Below, one piece after another: positions 190 through 270 of a DNA stretch of 34,702 bases (its first letter is position 1; every line of letters begins with the position of its first letter). A program made the position numbers and the translations under genes. Origin of the DNA: a virus. The notes below the pieces were generated by a model. That model saw only the letters and a program-made list of their open reading frames with translations, ran no database searches and was not told the origin of the DNA. The stretch is taken from positions 1 to 34,702 of IMG/VR virus record IMGVR_UViG_3300020187_000106; one strand, 5' to 3'.

Positions 190-270
190 CTATACTCTAC
201 TAGTTTATAAAGAGAACTATATCTCACTATTTGTGAGAGATATAGGTTCTCTCATATAAACAGAGTATAG
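190..270 (+). promoter_or_regulatory. long leader hairpin before the first gene
   Basis: The two halves of this 81-nt stretch pair almost along their full length. 190-198 pairs with 262-270, 203-209 with 255-261, 211-217 with 246-252, and 218-225 with 237-244. That gives about 31 base pairs interrupted by short bulges (199-202, 245, 253-254) and a loop around 226-236. It ends immediately before the AAGGAAG ribosome-binding site (274-280) of the gene at 288. It could be an RNA stabiliser or RNase III target in the early leader, a large operator, or part of an origin. Confidence 0.7.

Follow-up and report, generated by a model that had tools for sequence, protein, structure and literature searches.

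A structure-conserved hairpin before the first early gene of HMO-2011-type phages, a candidate leader RNA element for processing and translation control

Genome context and features of the locus

The window, i.e. the whole stretch of DNA analyzed here, comprises positions 1 to 34,702 of the IMG/VR virus record IMGVR_UViG_3300020187_000106, a 34.7-kb virus record in which early genes run rightward from position 288 and late genes run leftward from the opposite side. Its DNA polymerase shows 82% identity to that of Roseobacter phage CRP-1, 80% to that of CRP-345 and 67% to that of Puniceispirillum phage HMO-2011, identities which place the window among the HMO-2011-type phages. The named hosts of the nearest isolates are Rhodobacteraceae and SAR116, both Alphaproteobacteria. 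Phages of this type are described as dominant, with a broad ocean distribution (PMC9038755); the text of that study makes no mention of promoters, terminators, hairpins or intergenic regions. A leader whose structure is conserved ahead of the early genes would offer a testable way into the start of infection in SAR116 and Roseobacter hosts.

The hairpin considered here lies in the intergenic leader 5' of the first early gene, gp1, whose product has no known domain and no detected similarity to any known family; its predicted structure is a low-confidence helical model with no PDB match at E <= 0.001. The features of the locus are as follows:

63..164, + strand: second conserved leader element, with the core GAGTTTnGCnCAnnnACTTC-hairpin-TGCAGTnnnnnnGAAACGRCnnGnRCmGAGGAT
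96..129, + strand: hairpin within the 63-164 element, variable in length and sequence; covarying pairs 96-129, 97-128, 101-123, 102-122, 103-121, 104-120 and 105-119
177..182, + strand: TTGACA, possible -35 box (TTGAC[AT] or TGGACA in 34 of 71 distinct spacers)
185..274, + strand: the hairpin, defined by its fold and compensatory counts
185-198/262-274, + strand: outer helix of the hairpin, with A189 bulged
199-202, + strand: 5' bulge ACTA
203-209/255-261, + strand: middle helix
A210 opposite C253-A254, + strand: conserved non-pair region
211-217/246-252, + strand: helix, with the bulge G245 between it and the inner helix
218-225/237-244, + strand: inner helix, with the loop at 226-236
275-280 and 288-290, + strand: Shine-Dalgarno (SD) sequence AGGAAG and start codon ATG of the first early gene, at near-constant spacing in 58 relatives
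288..884, + strand: gp1, first early gene, 198 aa, conserved in the group

Fold of the leader hairpin

Folded alone, positions 190-270 form a single hairpin of -32.4 kcal/mol, which none of 200 dinucleotide shuffles equals (-14.0 +/- 2.7 kcal/mol; z -6.88). The original prediction of a near-continuous hairpin of 81 nt and about 31 bp is thus borne out, with 31 pairs at 190-198/262-270, 203-209/255-261, 211-217/246-252 and 218-225/237-244. A further TTAT/ATAA helix (185-188/271-274) raises the count to 35 pairs and extends the hairpin to 185-274, slightly longer than had been noted, so that the stem, predicted to end at the first SD, directly abuts its AGG (275-277). The additional claim that a dyad of this length is rare in the early leaders of phages was too strong, as precedents are known from T7 early mRNA and from the leader of lambda N. 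An intrinsic terminator was considered and rejected: the stem is AU-rich and is followed by AGGAAG with no U tract, and the structure is absent from the terminator scan.

Conservation of structure with divergence of sequence

Related loci were gathered by a protein search with gp1, which yielded 55 IMG/VR loci, and by a DNA pattern derived from the upstream element, which yielded 80 of the 118 matching IMG/VR stretches. An automatic hairpin search recovered the hairpin 5' of the first early gene in at least 96 related loci among the matches listed, including CRP-1, CRP-345 and HMO-2011; of those reaching far enough, nearly all carry it in the same position and one scored too weak. When the arms were aligned without regard to strand, 62 distinct trimmed cores of 72-98 nt emerged, with a mean fold z of -6.5 (weakest -4.1). 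Together these contain 2141 Watson-Crick pairs, no G.T, five A.C/C.A and 46 T.C; most of the T.C fall at a single conserved mismatch. The 5' arms are pyrimidine-rich and the 3' arms purine-rich, and HMO-2011 displays the same hairpin architecture with almost no arm sequence in common.

Compensatory substitutions, on which the predicted hairpin had been made to depend, are present above shuffles in both sets of alignable hairpins: in set A3, 17 of the 35 pairs have changed on both sides, and in set A4, 13 of 35, counts that are inflated by the relatedness of the loci. Pair number, cell number and covariation score exceed those of 500 out of 500 shuffles and of all slid versions in both sets; the sole measure that does not rise above the shuffles is how many further pair types occur in A4. 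Given that so many dissimilar stem sequences pair, a chance origin appears implausible. G.U and A.C pairs are both near zero in the hairpin; a lack of G.U is uncommon in RNA helices, and the wobble pairs thus give no information on strand or molecule. An apparent excess of G.T over the whole region was traced to the TG-rich background and dropped. The retention of pairing without sequence, together with the near-constant geometry described below, indicates that the function of the hairpin lies in its structure, most likely in an RNA 5' leader.

Geometry relative to the ribosome-binding site

In 58 loci the distance from the end of the stem to the AGG is 0-4 nt, which is partly by construction as stems were trimmed before the SD, and that to the ATG is 10-18 nt, mostly 12-14 nt, which is less so. 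In 56 of the 58, the stretch from SD to start codon is predicted to be more accessible when the real hairpin precedes it than when a shuffled version does. In some relatives the base of the stem runs into the SD itself, e.g. CCTT/AAGG in locus L031 and CCTTTT/AAAAGG in L035. In a further locus, L017, a different gene comes first; there the hairpin remains at the start of the operon and the displaced gp1 is without one, indicating that the hairpin is tied to the operon start rather than to gp1.

The TTGACA at 177-182, if used as a -35 box, could start transcription inside the 5' arm of the hairpin. This box is the main difficulty for a leader RNA, and a second promoter is possible. Among distinct spacers no enrichment of a -10 box was found at 16-18 nt from the TTGACA-type box relative to control offsets.

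The upstream element and the wider intergenic region

The 63-164 element is matched by its covariance model at 92.4 bits, the window itself being among the sequences of the model. This model finds the element in the window, CRP-345, CRP-1 and HMO-2011, all four of which are in its alignment. Searches with the pattern and/or the model found it absent from CRP-2, CRP-207, HTVC033P and an end fragment of CRP-603, and it thus marks one part of the group. It is present once per genome in the seven of ten records that carry it. The pattern also produced 11 matches in unrelated bacteria; in none of them is the motif surrounded by the remainder of the element, and they were read as chance.

In relatives about 450-500 bp of intergenic DNA lie 5' of gp1, with conserved blocks and hairpins at fixed places; the window begins within this region and shows only its final 287 bases. 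A 5-bp hairpin follows CAGTTGC in 63 of 76 loci, with 22 different stem-loop sequences, as against 1 of 75 in a neighboring control stretch. A global alignment across the 500 bp contained too many gaps to give more than the hairpin at 96-129. No Rfam 15 family matched at gathering score in the window or in 16 relatives, and tRNA and tmRNA searches returned no family match in turn; Rfam matches below threshold, which involve the minus strand and models of miRNAs and sRNAs, appear to reflect shape alone.

We tentatively raise the possibility that the 450-500 bp region encodes a large structured phage RNA of a new kind, in which conserved linkers join several hairpins of conserved position. The 81-nt hairpin would form the 3' boundary of this RNA, at which processing would release it from the first mRNA. 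Alternatively, the region may be structured DNA such as an origin. The conserved noncoding region around the hairpin may represent a new phage RNA family and is a more novel lead than the hairpin itself.

Some observations on more distal parts of this region may be added. About 170-500 bp upstream of the element, relatives (e.g. L006, L002 and L060) contain several small perfect hairpins at conserved places, on whose stems the same loops are found both ways round (TTTA/TAAA, CTTG/CAAG), as if template switching or recombination had inverted the hairpin. Relatives also have a conserved block TGTAAACCAC...GTGGTTAACA...CCTGATCTGTGTAT, about 430-500 bp 5' of the element, which contains sequences one or two mismatches away from a DnaA box. 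The cumulative GC skew of the window rises from this same end, so this part of the region may hold an origin.

Proposed role of the hairpin and its precedents

The reading that we favor, with moderate confidence, is that the rightward early transcript carries the hairpin as a folded RNA within its 5' leader, where it would have a role in processing, with RNase III as the likeliest enzyme, and in translation control. The conservation of shape without sequence, the long perfect pairing, the lack of a U tract and the adjoining ribosome site all fit an RNA leader hairpin, and this fit, along with RNase III-cut counterparts in other phages and the length requirement of the Sinorhizobium meliloti enzyme, favors processing plus translation control. 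Mechanistically, the hairpin would close off the leader right at the point where ribosomes bind for the first gene, and its double-stranded stem would keep the AU-rich leader off the SD and start codon. Most likely the stem would also provide a double-stranded processing site, at which host RNase III would cut the structured upstream leader from the first mRNA. Among the five functions originally offered, an RNase III site, a stability element and translation control draw support from the conservation of structure without sequence and the near-constant SD and ATG spacing; a large operator does not, as the arms of divergent relatives share almost no sequence, and an origin at the hairpin itself found no support.

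In phage lambda, the N leader comprises a conserved leader element, a long hairpin and the SD of the first early gene, in that order. A 1987 paper by Steege, listed in PMC5371410, names the RNA processing and translation signals of this leader in its title. The arrangement of nutL and an RNase III hairpin before N resembles the succession of conserved leader element, long hairpin and first early SD seen here; it differs in that the 63-164 element is a conserved element with a hairpin and not a recognized nut site (boxA/boxB, bound by N and Nus factors), and in that gp1 has no detected resemblance to a known family. According to PMC5371410 and references therein, the lambda N leader and the cIII mRNA are RNase III-cut counterparts.

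The early RNase III signals of T7 (R1.1 and others) are comparable as long irregular hairpins with asymmetric bulges in an early transcript made by the host polymerase, and RNase III cuts T7 early mRNA at five sites (PMC4858673); R1.1 is 60 nt long with a 4/5-nt internal loop (PMC6121014). The present hairpin differs from these signals in being longer, in lying in the leader against the first SD and in being almost free in sequence, and its cleavage is predicted. The put antiterminator RNA of HK022, which acts in cis, is likewise structured and close to the beginning of an early transcript; both early operons have a copy, of about 70 nt and two stem-loops (PMC9378689), whereas the upstream element here is found once per genome. 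RNase III of the alphaproteobacterium S. meliloti cut a 30-bp but not a 16-bp dsRNA (PMC6121014), and the 35-pair stem fits this enzyme in length; with helices broken by small bulges only, it also lies within the length range of RNase III sites (about 20 bp or more). A literature search recovered no RNase III assay on HMO-2011-type phages. We infer that a transcript would cross the stem, that RNase III would cut it and that expression would be affected; the hairpin can be regarded as a group-wide form of already known phage leader processing and translation hairpins.

Alternative readings

A related but rather unlikely account is that the RNA hairpin is left uncut and acts only as a 5' stability and/or translation element, holding the ribosome site open and shielding the mRNA from decay. 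The same conservation and spacing data apply to it, and the continuation of the stem base into the SD in L031 and L035 would suit a translation switch; however, some 35 pairs are far beyond what is needed to open a ribosome site, and such a dsRNA is itself an expected RNase III target.

It is distinctly improbable that the inverted repeat acts in DNA, forming a cruciform or a hairpin in single strands that serves replication or controls a promoter, with the RNA being incidental. The strictly Watson-Crick pairing, with almost no G.T or A.C, the TTGACA box beside the 5' arm and the other perfect upstream hairpins with loops in both orientations are in line with such a function, but the near-constant SD and ATG spacing, the fixed bulges and mismatch, and the pyrimidine-rich 5' and purine-rich 3' arms point to a directional RNA element.

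Far less probable still is a mutational by-product, in which template switching corrects the quasi-palindrome and the arms stay complementary though they have no function. It would account for the scarcity of G.T or A.C intermediates and for the loop inversions in the neighboring small hairpins, but position, length (72-98 nt), bulges and mismatch are kept across the group, and correction would erase the mismatch. Least credible is a large operator at which a repressor would act on the early promoter. The dyad does lie near a possible -35 box, but the arms differ widely while pairing persists, and it is the bulges and mismatch that are conserved, not the sequence; a fixed repressor operator was rejected for want of any conserved arm sequence among relatives.

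Other repeats and genes in the window

The early region contains a 14-bp palindrome, GTCCAAYGTTGGAC, at 695-708, 997-1010, 1338-1351, 1587-1600 and 2422-2435 of the window, and with one mismatch at 6104-6117 and 13425-13438, making seven matches where 0.05 are expected. One copy lies inside gp1, where it codes for a conserved SNVGQ; the palindrome also occurs upstream in relatives, in some as the variant GTCCGACATCGGAC. These repeats are possibly a repressor operator or stoperator-like set. Between early genes, a second long perfect inverted repeat of 13 bp with a 14-nt loop (1268-1307) is possibly another processing site. A tyrosine integrase at 5244-6329 suggests that the phage may be temperate, and a cell-wall hydrolase (3943-4335; PF07486, E 1e-26) sits among the early genes, apart from the late genes. 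Finally, a strong GC-rich hairpin at about 19355-19390, with A and T runs on either side, lies between the convergent early and late operons and is probably a bidirectional terminator.
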